IMG/VR virus record: IMGVR_UViG_3300036859_000666
Span: 1-37,053 of that record
Reading direction: 5' to 3' (one strand)
From: a virus
Length of the DNA: 37,053 nt
Below the pieces are notes generated by a model. That model had not been told where the DNA came from. It made no database searches and saw only the letters and a program-made list of their open reading frames with translations. Of this stretch, positions 71-37,053 are shown one piece after another. The stretch's first letter is position 1, and each line of letters begins with the position of its first letter. The translations under genes and the position numbers were made by a program.

Positions 71-511
71 ATATGCCTCTTCCTTGGCCTTGCGGATGAT
101 CGGGAGCGCGGCGTCGGCGAGCTCGGTCGACGTCAGCGCGGGGAGCGCCGCGATCTCGTCGGCGCGCGCCGTGAGCCCAGCCTTGCGCAGCCAGGTCGGC
201 GTGAACACCCGGACCAGCCAGTCGGTCGCCATCCACGCGCGGACCTCGTCAGCCTCTCGATCGCCGGCCGTACCCACGAGCCGCGGGATGAACGGCACGA
301 GGCGCTGGCGCTGCTCGTCGTCGAGCCGATCGTTGAGCGTGATGCCGAATGAGCGGAGGACGGGGCTCGTACAGACCGGCTGGTCGCCGTAGTCGACACC
401 CGCGAAGATGCTCACCCACTCGAGTAGGCACGCCTCGCCCTTATCGGCCTTGGCTTTGGAGTGCCCACCCGGCTCCAGATGGATCGTGGTCAGGTCGATG
501 TGGTGCGTCAC
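1..511 (-). CDS. Alanine-rich tetrapeptide-repeat protein, N-terminal part (gene continues at 37053)
   Basis: I recognise no function. Translation starts at a GTG (511-509) that overlaps the TGA of the upstream exonuclease gene in a GTGA arrangement. The first roughly 145 residues form a normal mixed-composition domain (VTHHIDLTTIHLEPGGHSKA onward, with several Trp and acidic residues). After the stretch KAKEEAY the protein becomes pure tetrapeptide repeats of the type (G/R)(A/D)AA and runs off the window edge. Joined to 37053-36701, the frame stays open and gives a 287-residue protein. The gene sits between the YqaJ-type exonuclease and RecT in one coupled operon, so a role connected with recombination, or an accessory protein carried with it, is inferred only from position. 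Confidence 0.8.
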   Translation of the reverse strand, partial: MTHHIDLTTIHLEPGGHSKAKADKGEACLLEWVSIFAGVDYGDQPVCTSPVLRSFGITLNDRLDDEQRQRLVPFIPRLVGTAGDREADEVRAWMATDWLVRVFTPTWLRKAGLTARADEIAALPALTSTELADAALPIIRKAKEEAYAAGAAARAAAGDAARAAAGAAAG

Positions 512-1566
512 GCGGGTTCCTCCTCGTCGAACTTGGGCGGGCCAAAGCGCCGGTCGCCTGGCTTGGTCTTGGTGTTGCTCGGGATCACGGCGTCGAGCCA
601 GGCCGTCACGCCGTCGACGTCGATGGGCTCGCCTTTCGCGTACAGCGACAGCGCGAGGTCGTACGAGGACCGCAGGTCCGCAGCCACCGCCTCCCAGGCG
701 ACCGTCTCGCGGTCCTTCGTGGTCTTCCAGGTGACCTCGCCGACGCCCGGCGCCACGAGCTTCGCGTAGCGCTTGCCCATGCGCGCCGTGATCCGGTTGC
801 GGGCGACGAGCTTGTCGGCCTCGGCCTGGTCGAGCCGGCGCTGGGCGTCGCGCAGGTCGAGCAGGTACCGTCGCAGCCGCTTGTCGGCCTCGAGGGTCTC
901 GCCCTCGTCGCGCGGGTAGATCGCGGCGAGCGCCTGGCGGGTGGCCTCCGAGCCGTCGACCGGGGGCTCGGTACGCGTCTGGACGTGGTCCCAGAACACG
1001 GCCTCGTGCTCGATGATGGCGTCCTCGGCGGCCTGCTCGCGGCGCACCGTGTAGATCTGGACCGCGTGCCGCCCGGCGATGAGCGCAGCGACGTCGGCCT
1101 CGGGCTCGTCGGTCACCGCCAGCTGGTGGAGGACCTGGGCGAGGACCTCGTCCGGGACTTCGTCGGTGCCTGGCTCGCCGTAGCCCTTGCCCCGCCCGCT
1201 GAACTTGAGCTCGACGGGCTTGCGCCCGGCGCGCCGATCGAGGCTCGCGAGCATGAAGCCGTGGACCGGGTGCTGGCGGAGGTTGTTCGCACGCCGGATC
1301 CGGACGCCGGTCGCCTCGGTGTACAGCTGGCTGATCAGCGGCTCGAGCGCCGTGCCCATGCGCATGGGCAGCGTCTCGAGCGGCGGCGGGACCAGACCCA
1401 GCTTGCGCGCCCACAGCCCGATCGGGCTCTCGTAGTCGCTCTCACCGATGACCGCGGCCGCCTCGCTCGCGCCGATGCCGAGCTCGAGGCGCGCCGCGAG
1501 CCACTCCGGCGTTCGCTGGCGGATCGGCAGGACCGTGGGCGACCTGCCGACTGCCGGCGCTGTCAT
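508..1566 (-). CDS. YqaJ-like phage exonuclease (lambda exonuclease fold)
   Basis: A 352-residue protein of the YqaJ viral recombinase family, which acts with a RecT-type annealing protein in phage recombination by resecting double-stranded ends. The N-terminal GASEAAAVIGESDYESPIGL stretch (about residues 32-51) is typical of the family. Candidate metal-binding residues are E75 (GTALEP), D110 (ASLDRR) and the E-x-K pair E119/K121 (PVELKFSG). The C-terminal third is charged and helical (LDLRDAQRRLDQAEADK). The start ATG at 1566 overlaps the upstream stop (ATGA). The downstream repeat gene begins inside its stop codon, and RecT follows after that gene across the window junction. A longer open frame upstream lacks family similarity and overlaps two coupled genes, so the internal start is preferred. 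Confidence 0.9.
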   Translation of the reverse strand: MTAPAVGRSPTVLPIRQRTPEWLAARLELGIGASEAAAVIGESDYESPIGLWARKLGLVPPPLETLPMRMGTALEPLISQLYTEATGVRIRRANNLRQHPVHGFMLASLDRRAGRKPVELKFSGRGKGYGEPGTDEVPDEVLAQVLHQLAVTDEPEADVAALIAGRHAVQIYTVRREQAAEDAIIEHEAVFWDHVQTRTEPPVDGSEATRQALAAIYPRDEGETLEADKRLRRYLLDLRDAQRRLDQAEADKLVARNRITARMGKRYAKLVAPGVGEVTWKTTKDRETVAWEAVAADLRSSYDLALSLYAKGEPIDVDGVTAWLDAVIPSNTKTKPGDRRFGPPKFDEEEPA

Positions 1567-33970: not shown

Positions 33971-34227
33971 GCGCCGCCCTCGCCGTCAGGCAGGACGGGA
34001 CCGACCGCCTCCAGCCGGATGAGTGGCTCCGGGGCGTCGGCCGGGACGACGGTCTCGGCGATGAGGTCGAGCGGGTCGAACACCCAGTCCGGGATCTCGG
34101 CCTTGAACTGGACGCTGACCGCGCCCATGCCGCGAGGCAGCGTCCCACGGGTCTTCGTCAGCTTCTGCGCCTCGATCGACCCGCCGCGCACCCGATGGAA
34201 CTGGACGAAGAACGAGACCTTGCTCAT
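33967..34227 (-). CDS. Hypothetical 86-aa protein
   Basis: MSKVSFFVQFHRVRGGSIEA, QKLTKTRGTLPRGMGAVSVQ and a beta-like end (LIAETVVPADAPEPLIRLEA). No family recognised. ATG and stop overlap the neighbours in the coupled early chain, next to the clamp homologue. Confidence 0.6.
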   Translation of the reverse strand: MSKVSFFVQFHRVRGGSIEAQKLTKTRGTLPRGMGAVSVQFKAEIPDWVFDPLDLIAETVVPADAPEPLIRLEAVGPVLPDGEGGA

Positions 34228-34841
34228 GAGGCCACGGAATCAGGAGCGGCAGCCCGCTTACGCTTCGCCTCGGCGATCGGCATCGCCTCGCCGTCTGGCA
34301 GGCGGATCGGCATGATGATCTCGACGAAGCCCGACGAGCCCTCGATCGCGATTGGGTCCGTCGGCCGCCGCATCCGGAGCTTCACCTGGAAGTCGGACGT
34401 GCCCTTGGCGATGTCGGCCAGGAACCGCGGGTTGAATGCTCCGACGACCGGCCATGTGACCTTCGCCACGACCTCGTCGTACGGCGGGTACTTGCCGTCC
34501 ATGAGCCGCGTGCTGAACTCGAACGATGGATGCCTCAGGGTCAGCGCGCCGTCCGTATGCCCGAGGACGATGACGCCGACCGCTCGCTTCAGCATCCGCA
34601 GGATCAGGTCGACGTCGTCGCGGTAGACGATGGCCCGCTTCCACGTCGCGGTCCGCCCGACCGCCGGGATGGGCTGAATGGCGATGCGGTAGTTGTCGGC
34701 CGCGACCGCCCGGAAGCCCTCGCGGTCGCCTTCGAGCAGCACTGACGCGAGGACCGGACGCGCCTCGTCATTCGCCGCGGCGTGACGCACCGCCTTCAGC
34801 GCGGTGACGAGATCGGCGCACTCGACGGTGAGCGTGCTCAT
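34224..34841 (-). CDS. Truncated DnaN-like sliding clamp homologue
   Basis: 205 residues. DLVTALKAVRHAAANDEARP then VLASVLLEGDREGFRAVAAD and NYRIAIQPI matches the first half of a beta-clamp domain (ATDxxRLAx pattern). LMDGKYPPYDEVV matches the end of domain II. FNPRFLADIAKG and GFVEIIMPIRLPD match the last half of domain III, ending as in the MPMRL tail of DnaN. Bacterial clamps are about 370 residues, so roughly half is missing. It may be a mini-clamp that assembles as a different oligomer, or a decoy or regulator of the host clamp. It is close to RecT in the early operon. No phage polymerase was seen. Confidence 0.7.
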   Translation of the reverse strand: MSTLTVECADLVTALKAVRHAAANDEARPVLASVLLEGDREGFRAVAADNYRIAIQPIPAVGRTATWKRAIVYRDDVDLILRMLKRAVGVIVLGHTDGALTLRHPSFEFSTRLMDGKYPPYDEVVAKVTWPVVGAFNPRFLADIAKGTSDFQVKLRMRRPTDPIAIEGSSGFVEIIMPIRLPDGEAMPIAEAKRKRAAAPDSVAS

Positions 34842-35584
34842 GACCCGGACTCGTTGAACTCGTGGTCGCCCGGATGCTCGGCGGGCCTGATGCAGCCGTG
34901 GAACGGGCAGTCCTCGGTGCGGCCCCTGGCTCCGCGCTCGACCGTGACCGTGATGCCGCGCTCCGGGTCATCGAACTCGCCACGCTCGGCTGCGTCGGCG
35001 ACCGCGTCCATGACGCGTCCCGCGACGTCGTCGACTGGCCGGAGCGGCGTGGGCTCGGGCTGCTCCTGGCCGTGCTGCCAGGCGGCGAACGCGCGGACGA
35101 ACGGATCGATCGCGGGCAGCGCGCCGCCGTACCGCCGGGCGACGTCGGTGAACTCCTCGAGGTCGTGCTTCCGGACGCGGAGCCTGACCTCGCCCTCCTC
35201 GTCGTACTCGACCCCGAGGTGCAGCAGCTCGTGCAGCAGGAGCGCGTCGCGCTGCTCGCTCGTGAACTGGTCCCAGAACCAGCCGCGGCACCAGATGACC
35301 GCGTCGTGGCCCGTCAGGTCGTGCCACAGGACGGGGGCCTTGATGCACTTGGCGATTGCGTCGTGCTTCGCCTCGTCGCTGAGCGGGTCGAAGGGCTTCG
35401 CGTTGATCAGGAAGCCGACGTTGATGTCCTCGCCCTCGATCGCGCGCCGCACGTTGAACAGGCGCCCGACCTCGCCGGCGGCGCCCAGCTGCGACACCAC
35501 GCGCTGCGCGACGTCGGCGACGGCCGTCGAGACGATGAACTGGCTGGGGTTGAGGTCGGGGAACATGTCGGGCGTCGTGCCCAT
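34838..35584 (-). CDS. Putative phage metallopeptidase (HExxH) with C-terminal Cys/His knuckle
   Basis: 248 residues. ALLLHELLHLGVEYDEEGEV holds the HELLH motif (His118, Glu119, His122), as in the putative metallopeptidase family described in phages. The N-terminus DMFPDLNPSQFIVSTAVADV is helical. A C-terminal CPFHGCIRPAEHPGDH has two Cys and three His. Substrate is unknown; it lies between RecT and the clamp homologue, so an action on host replication or defence proteins is possible. Confidence 0.7.
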   Translation of the reverse strand: MGTTPDMFPDLNPSQFIVSTAVADVAQRVVSQLGAAGEVGRLFNVRRAIEGEDINVGFLINAKPFDPLSDEAKHDAIAKCIKAPVLWHDLTGHDAVIWCRGWFWDQFTSEQRDALLLHELLHLGVEYDEEGEVRLRVRKHDLEEFTDVARRYGGALPAIDPFVRAFAAWQHGQEQPEPTPLRPVDDVAGRVMDAVADAAERGEFDDPERGITVTVERGARGRTEDCPFHGCIRPAEHPGDHEFNESGS

Positions 35585-36666
35585 CAGAGCGCCTGTCCTT
35601 CGGGCTCCTGGGCCGCCAGGTGCTGGACGAGCTCGTAGCGCTGCTCGTCGGTCAGCGGCACGTTCGCCTCACGCGGGAAGAGGCGCTTGCTCTCCTCGAT
35701 CGCGTACGGCCGGCTGACCTGCAGCCGCTCGAGCTCCGATGCGAGCTGCTCCAGGGTCAGGCCGGCCGGCAGTCCGGGCTCCGTGGGCTCAGGCTCGTCG
35801 TCCGCCGGTTCCTCAGGCGGCGTGACGTCCTTCGCCAGCCGGCTGGCGAGCTGCGAGGCCCGCGACTGCCGCCCGGTGGGCGCGGTGGCCACCGGGGCAT
35901 CCTCGTCGCGGACCCCGAGCAGTTCGTCCTCCCGGATGAGGATGCTGCGGATCTCGGGGCGGACCGGGAGCACCTTGGCCAGCCGCTTGATGACCGTCTT
36001 CTTGGCCATCTCGTCCCAGTCGCTGGCCCACGGGCTGAAGCCGCGGCCGCGGCCACCGCGCTCGTGGATCCGCTCGACCGCCGCGCGGTCCATGACGTCG
36101 GGAATGCTTGAGCCGTCACGCAGGCGGGCGATCGCGTAGACGTGCGTCGTGGGCTTCGTGCTGGCGTCCGTGGCCAACGACGGCACGTGCACGATGACGG
36201 GCTGCAGGCCGAGCTCGTAGGCGAACTCGTCGCCCTCCTTGACGACCCGCGCCTCGAGCGACTGCACGTCGGACGGCGGCTTCGTGACCAGGCGGATGAC
36301 GCCCCGGTAGTCCGGGATCAGCTGCGCGCGCTTCTCGTAGTGCGGGCGGTCCTTCGTCCCGACGTTCACGTTGTACGGCACGAGGTGCGCCCCGCCCGCG
36401 GCGCCCGTCGGCTCGAGGCCCTGGGCCGCGGCCTCGAAGATCGAAAGGATCACCGACTCGGCGGTGCACTCGAGGAGCTCGGGGTTCTTGACGATCGCCT
36501 GGACGCTGACCCGGCGGAAGCGGTCGGCGGCCGCCTGGTCGGGCAGCAGCTCCATGAGCGCCGACGCCCGGTCCTCGAGCATCCGGACGACCGGGCTCTG
36601 CTCGACGCGCTCGACGATCGTCAGCGCCTTGCTCTCGGCGGGCTTGGCAGGTGCGGCGGTGGCCAT
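35584..36666 (-). CDS. recT: RecT-family single-strand annealing protein
   Basis: 360 residues. FRRVSVQAIVKNPELLECTA, SVILSIFEAAAQGLEPTGAA then GGAHLVPYNVNVGTKDRPHY and AQLIPDYRGVIRLVTK are classic RecT sequence, and ASDWDEMAKKTVIKRLAKVL belongs to the C-terminal helix. It anneals single strands produced by the YqaJ exonuclease. Start ATG 36666 with GAGGAGA upstream. In the circular reading it lies just after the repeat gene in the same operon. The last 100 residues are acidic and disordered. Confidence 0.93.
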   Translation of the reverse strand: MATAAPAKPAESKALTIVERVEQSPVVRMLEDRASALMELLPDQAAADRFRRVSVQAIVKNPELLECTAESVILSIFEAAAQGLEPTGAAGGAHLVPYNVNVGTKDRPHYEKRAQLIPDYRGVIRLVTKPPSDVQSLEARVVKEGDEFAYELGLQPVIVHVPSLATDASTKPTTHVYAIARLRDGSSIPDVMDRAAVERIHERGGRGRGFSPWASDWDEMAKKTVIKRLAKVLPVRPEIRSILIREDELLGVRDEDAPVATAPTGRQSRASQLASRLAKDVTPPEEPADDEPEPTEPGLPAGLTLEQLASELERLQVSRPYAIEESKRLFPREANVPLTDEQRYELVQHLAAQEPEGQAL

Positions 36667-36700: not shown

Positions 36701-37053
36701 TCAGGCAGGGACAGTGGCGCGCGTCGGCACGTCGCACATCCGCCCGAAGAGGTCCAGCGCGCTGTCCAGCAGCTCGCTCGTCGTCTCGGCCAGCGCCACG
36801 TCGAGCAGCGGGCGGGCCGCCTTGTACGCGGCGTTGTACTTGGCGAAGTAGTCGCCCTTCGTCTTAGAGGCGGCGTCCCCGGCGGCGTCCCAGGCGGCGT
36901 CCCGGGCGGCGTCCCAGGCGGCGTCCCGGGCGGCGGCCCCGGCGGCGTCCCAGGCGGCGGCCCGGGCGGCGGCCCCGGCGGCGGCCCGGGCGGCGTCCCC
37001 GGCGGCGGCCCGGGCGGCGGCCCCGGCGGCGTCCCAGGCGGCGGCCCGGGCGG
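36701..37053 (-). CDS. Alanine-rich tetrapeptide-repeat protein, C-terminal part
   Basis: Enters the window in frame at 37053 and is made of repeats (W/R/G)(D/A)AA up to about 36869, then SKTKGDYFAKYNAAYKAARP and a helical tail ending TRATVPA at 36701. The C-terminal segment looks like a folded helix bundle, so the repeats may be a rigid helical arm between two domains. It is the other half of the gene starting at 511. It ends 34 nt before RecT. Confidence 0.8.
   Translation of the reverse strand, partial: ARAAAWDAAGAAARAAAGDAARAAAGAAARAAAWDAAGAAARDAAWDAARDAAWDAAGDAASKTKGDYFAKYNAAYKAARPLLDVALAETTSELLDSALDLFGRMCDVPTRATVPA
36869..37053. repeat. 12-bp minisatellite, main array
   Basis: Fifteen full tandem 12-bp units and a 5-base remainder, all starting GGCGGC on the plus strand and varying only in the 7th-8th and 12th bases. 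Trp (TGG), Arg (CGG) and Gly (GGG) alternate with Asp or Ala in the encoded tetrapeptide. Continues at 1-70. Joining the ends gives one 9-bp unit instead of 12, so 3 bp (or 3 plus a multiple of 12) may be missing. Confidence 0.92.

Follow-up and report, generated by a model that had tools for sequence, protein, structure and literature searches.

A candidate length-tunable relative of Tweety gp54, encoded by a tetrapeptide-repeat gene in an early phage recombination operon

The window, i.e., the whole stretch of DNA analysed here, is the complete IMG/VR record IMGVR_UViG_3300036859_000666 of 37,053 bp, and its minus strand carries an operon in the order exonuclease, repeat gene, RecT, metallopeptidase and RusA-like gene, followed further along by a primase-like gene. 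The exonuclease, encoded at 508-2064, is of the YqaJ/RecE-like recombination type (PF09588, E 5.9e-25; phrog_434, E 2.3e-64) and its stop codon is overlapped by the GTG start (509-511) of the repeat gene. That gene is present in two pieces, the first reading from the GTG at 511 down to 1, where it runs off the contig end, and the second from 37053 down to 36701. The 5′ part (1-511) specifies a conserved N-terminal domain (N-domain) of 145 amino acids (77-511) and the first units of a tetrapeptide array, while the 3′ part specifies further array units (36869-37053) and a C-terminal region of 55 amino acids plus stop (36701-36868) for which a long helix is predicted. From the stop (36701) it is 34 bp to the start of the gene for a RecT-like annealing protein (35584-36666; PF03837, E 1.2e-32; phrog_148, E 2.7e-52), directly after which come, also on the minus strand, a gene for a putative phage metallopeptidase (34838-35584; PF18894, E 2.5e-18), whose best PHROG is labelled transposase, and a gene at 34224-34841 that matches both RusA-like resolvase and processivity-factor PHROGs. 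Further away, on the same strand, a 605-amino-acid ORF at 8491-10308 matches tail tape-measure PHROGs.

Tandem Repeats Finder (TRF) describes the right-hand piece of the array, 36869-37053, as 15.4 copies of a 12-bp unit (87% matches, score 258), its best score there being for 5.1 copies of 36 bp (score 286), and the left-hand piece, 1-70, as 5.8 copies of 12 bp (score 119). The runner-up tandem array anywhere in the window scores 68, so the array stands far above chance. A reading made earlier from the sequence only had assigned at least 20 units to 36869-37053; the array is real, but that interval holds 15 whole units and 20 is reached only with the 5 at the left contig end. As the record is cut within the array, these 20 visible whole units do not give the total in the phage. 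Why should one gene be found at both ends? The simplest reading, which is well supported, is that the molecule is circular, that it bears a single gene here and that assembly cut it open within the array, so that the gene falls to both ends of the record. The support comes from two relatives split likewise, G018 (48,423 bp) and G029 (42,091 bp), in each of which the two contig ends fall within the array, one carrying the N-domain and the other the C-terminal domain, together with the intact genes in dozens of relatives. Two independent genes at the contig ends were considered and, given the same pattern in G018 and G029, rejected. The two termini of the record were searched for an exact overlap, and none was found. 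The location between exonuclease and RecT that the sequence-only reading proposed consequently holds only if the molecule is circular, as the repeat gene is not contiguous in the record.

Searching IMG/VR with the N-domain yielded 36 encoded relatives at first and later at least 251, and where these are intact the layout recurs: an N-domain of ~145 amino acids, an array of (W/R/G)(D/A)AA type and a C-terminal helix. Thirteen N-domain residues, many of them polar, are invariant among 34 aligned sequences, including G15, H17, C28, N60, D61, R68, T81, R91, D97, W98 and R101, and the C-terminal region is identical to that of the nearest relative, L008, in 40 of 55 aligned columns. AlphaFold models the N-domain with a pLDDT of 96. 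For L008, which is also the nearest intact relative, the C-terminal helix is confident and ~9 units at the start of the array prolong the last N-domain helix in the model, the remaining array having a pLDDT of <50; the helical arm that had been envisaged is thus only partly supported, the array beyond those units being of very low confidence. Among the relatives, one genome (IMGVR_UViG_3300048589_001642) has the repeat gene in two differing copies, at 217-603(-) and 45410-45823(-), and a human faecal phage scaffold (MT835534.1, 1-600) encodes an N-domain relative near its end, with the frame entering repeats of YAAADAARAAA type at the contig end.

What sort of protein is it? Neither sequence comparison of the N-domain with PDB nor Foldseek at E <5 gave a match there, which is no proof of a new fold. 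The best VIA-align hit, to rubrerythrin helices with Z 4.2, is not meaningful, and significant Foldseek matches to viral models were to uncharacterised phage proteins only. Pfam searching of the N-domain gave nothing useful, with no Pfam family common to more than one family member, and PADLOC, which lists defence rather than counter-defence proteins, gave no useful match. Looked at for a relation to known recombination accessory proteins, the family gave PHROG matches to families of unknown function only. Two of these families are informative. Phrog_3416, the PHROG of Tweety gp54, is matched by 18/31 relatives (best E 6.9e-9), and phrog_13065, from Gordonia phages, by 24/31. Compared with a profile made from the Tweety, Che8, Courthouse, SimranZ1 and Gordonia proteins, the N-domain profile gives an hhalign probability of 97 and E 2.9e-11 over 76 columns, against E 0.22 for RecT as negative control; direct BLASTP of the window protein with Tweety gp54 gives a pairwise E of 2e-4. 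This homology spans the first ~80 N-domain residues, ~76 of ~145, and so concerns the core only. C-terminal alignments with the gp54 type gave an hhalign probability of 0.1 and E 0.72, though in regions so short a remote relation could escape. Some family members probably carry mistaken annotations: gp54 of Mycobacterium phage SimranZ1 (L053:3001-3801), a Tweety gp54 homologue, is termed a ‘RecB-like protein’, and an N-domain match in Gordonia phage Abscondus (PV251872, 55296-55646) lies under a ‘tyrosine integrase’ feature.

The position of the window gene suggests a recombination accessory as the main rival: the N-domain would aid the exonuclease and the annealing protein in loading, spacing or end protection, the array being a flexible arm between partners. 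The gene is flanked by the YqaJ exonuclease, with translational overlap, and by RecT. Gordonia phages Smoothie and Norvs have a homologue that lacks the array (L052:2980-3504 and L054:2980-3504, annotated merely as hypothetical protein) and is similarly flanked by a RecE-like exonuclease and RecT. Among the genes adjoining it in relatives are those for exonucleases, for annealing proteins of RecT-like and Erf-like type, for RusA and methyltransferases, and for replication, and of 14 records found to have an exonuclease or an annealing gene, 10 have it at 2.5 kb or closer, versus 2.3 records expected at random, random placement being a weak null because early genes all cluster. However, a RecT match was found in 3/35 records, 1 of them over the cut-off, and a YqaJ match in 1/35; the adjoining annealing proteins come from unrelated families (ERF in 5/33 records, phrog_298 in 4/33, phrog_4171 in 4/33); and none of the homologues in Tweety, Che8 and SimranZ1 has an exonuclease or RecT annotated within about 2-3 kb of it. 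A conserved machine would, besides, not be expected to change length fast or to keep diverse residues. The linkage that had been proposed is therefore real in the window phage and recurrent in relatives, and RecT/YqaJ linkage as a general rule, or an invariable association with exonuclease and annealing genes, is not what the tested relatives display. The neighbour pattern places the gene in an early DNA-metabolism region without implying a fixed RecT partnership, and we consider the accessory role unlikely, if still worth serious attention. A more elaborate version, to which we give rather less credence, would have a dedicated exonuclease-annealase partner, its N-domain fold unmatched in PDB, whose fast-evolving arm, diversified by selection, hides recombination proteins or intermediates from the sensors of the host. 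If true, it would tie recombination directly to counter-defence and make length and unit order an evolvable setting in a widespread family.

The units themselves are instructive. Those in the window, read on the minus strand, are RAAA, WDAA, GAAA, GDAA and RDAA, and of the 12 bases only base 1 (T/C/G) and base 5 (A/C) vary, so that single-base changes do swap Trp, Arg and Gly as had been pointed out. Across 77 distinct arrays, which total 1,381 units, heterozygosity averages 0.55 at base 1, 0.41 at base 5 and 0.03-0.05 at third codon positions, with position 1 more diverse than third positions in 75/77 arrays (Wilcoxon p 3e-14) and both Ala third positions invariant in 63/77. The modal Ala-Ala codon pair differs among phages, there being 13 kinds, and in these same genes the N-domain mixes its Ala codons; codon bias can consequently be dismissed as the source of the silent homogeneity. 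Trp is found in all 54 arrays whose units encode residue 1 by NGG, and Trp, Gly and one Arg codon occur together in 42 of these; AGG and CGG are never combined (0/54) and each array uses 2-3 bases at the position, on which grounds random hypermutation of base 1, or hypermutation of the DGR type, was discarded. Three-unit words recur 184 times as compared to 112.5 in shuffles (p 1.5e-5), and this excess indicates duplication of blocks of units. With silent sites homogenised while Trp/Arg/Gly and Asp/Ala stay mixed, both fast unit turnover and selection for residue diversity are indicated: most simply, turnover outpaces silent mutation, and selection acting on the protein maintains diversity at both variable residues. 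This pattern was noted in 2007 for a single gene, Tweety gene 54 (PMC2884959).

Could the length, all the same, be without function, a by-product of neutral slippage in a GC-rich non-essential gene for which any length works? Unit numbers range widely among relatives, the Gordonia homologues manage without an array, and Tweety gp54 is thought to be non-essential, being absent from Llij (PMC2884959). Neutral turnover, though, would homogenise positions 1 and 5 too, and the diversity of position 1, the retention of Trp in every NGG-type array, and the preservation of frame and tetrad despite different Ala codons between phages make this an improbable explanation. A variable decoy or recognition surface, where the order of W/R/G and D/A in successive units provides a binding surface that changes and length matters less, would suit hypervariable residues at fixed positions in otherwise identical units. 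However, within an array the first position mostly takes just two to four kinds of residue, and the published Tweety escape mutants, as reviews describe them, change unit number and not unit type (PMC9262239, PMC8549241); such a surface is decidedly improbable, and the antigen-like decoy of the sequence-only reading found no support. Tandem 12-bp repeats beside recombination and replication genes might also be a cis-acting DNA element, an origin, packaging site or recombination hot spot that is incidentally translated, but with a peptide conserved across phages where the unit DNA is not, and variation restricted to amino-acid-changing positions, the chance of this is very slight.

That units can be gained or lost without a frameshift is seen directly. 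In three sets of contigs whose flanks are identical over 4.5-7.7 kb, the array alone differs, and by whole units: 108 bp or 9 units between L089 and L091 of the wider branch, 12 bp or 1 unit between the Tweety-group phage records L179 and L182, and 36 bp or 3 units between L220 and L221 on the Tweety side. The suggested comparison of unit number between close relatives thus revealed variation, always by whole units, in the wider branch and on the Tweety side, the window phage itself being without a known close relative. Metagenomic unit numbers are prone to repeat collapse and unreliable, since the contigs of 15/80 relatives end inside the repeat gene, most of them within its array (with 1.5% assumed per contig, p is about 1e-12); L179 and L182 are probably the least exposed. 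Those breaks might suggest that collapsed repeats made both the array and the contig ends, yet with intact arrays in dozens of contigs, the same design in isolated mycobacteriophage genomes and L179/L182 exactly one unit apart, an assembly artefact is barely credible.

The reading that we favour, with somewhat better than even confidence, is that the window gene encodes a length-tunable counter-defence protein belonging to a divergent and widespread branch of the Tweety gp54 kind. The N-domain and the C-terminal helix would be held apart by the Ala-rich tetrapeptide array, in which 12-bp units may be gained or lost in frame via slippage or unequal recombination; with gain and loss in frame, length variants arise readily. 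Its most likely role is that of a counter-defence factor in early infection, with unit number setting the spacing of its two ends and that spacing deciding which host or prophage defence is neutralised. Architecture, unit turnover and N-core homology are observed; for the window phage, we infer the counter-defence role, and with it the length tuning, from the homology of the N-domain core and the identity of design to Tweety gp54. Against this reading count the restriction of that homology to the core and the lack of a match between the C-terminal regions. Tweety mutants that escape the defences of the Phrann or MichelleMyBell prophages have more or fewer gp54 tetrapeptides, which reviews interpret as tuning of the distance between the two ends of gp54; the counter-defence phenotype they describe was measured in one distant mycobacteriophage, Tweety (PMC9262239, PMC8549241). 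The view that a variable-length arm of this sort had no known function is answered by that precedent, at least as those reviews present it, and of the possibilities then raised, a tunable linker and an anti-defence role would both match the published homologue (PMC9262239, PMC8549241).

Tweety gp54 is a rare case where a change of repeat number switches which defence a phage beats, by a mechanism that is not known. As the N-domain ties a large, mostly metagenomic, branch of phages to it, the family offers hundreds of natural variants in length and sequence, an array-less Gordonia homologue beside RecE/RecT, and an evolutionary signature, silent sites homogenised with the Trp/Arg/Gly mixture maintained, that together make testable what the array measures, and against what.

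How far do the likenesses go? TAL-effector repeats, as an analogy only, also consist of nearly identical DNA repeats in which two residues, always at set positions, are hypervariable; they differ in unit length, fold and function, and no homology is claimed. In bbp36 VR2 of Bordetella phage BMP-1, likened here on the basis of a published description, a dispensable phage gene has in-frame tandem repeats in variable number, though with a 24-bp unit (PMC2884959). Gordonia phage proteins Smoothie gp91 and Norvs gp90 (PHROG 13065) share the N-terminal core and the slot beside RecT, but at 174 amino acids lack the tetrapeptide array. The closest counterpart is Tweety gp54, with Che8 gp57 and PMC gp51 (PHROG 3416), where the design of 12-bp units and AA-tetrapeptides comes with 48, 26 and 15 units in Tweety, Che8 and PMC (PMC2884959). 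The second half of the N-domain and the C-terminal region of the window protein are not detectably related to gp54, the units are (W/R/G)(D/A)AA in the window and (G/W/Q)(S/Y)AA in Tweety, and Tweety gene 54 lies among hypothetical genes, unlike the window gene with its recombination neighbours. Common to both are a homologous N-terminal core, a central AA-tetrapeptide array of 12-bp units varying mostly at two residues per unit, and conserved ends between which the number of units varies.
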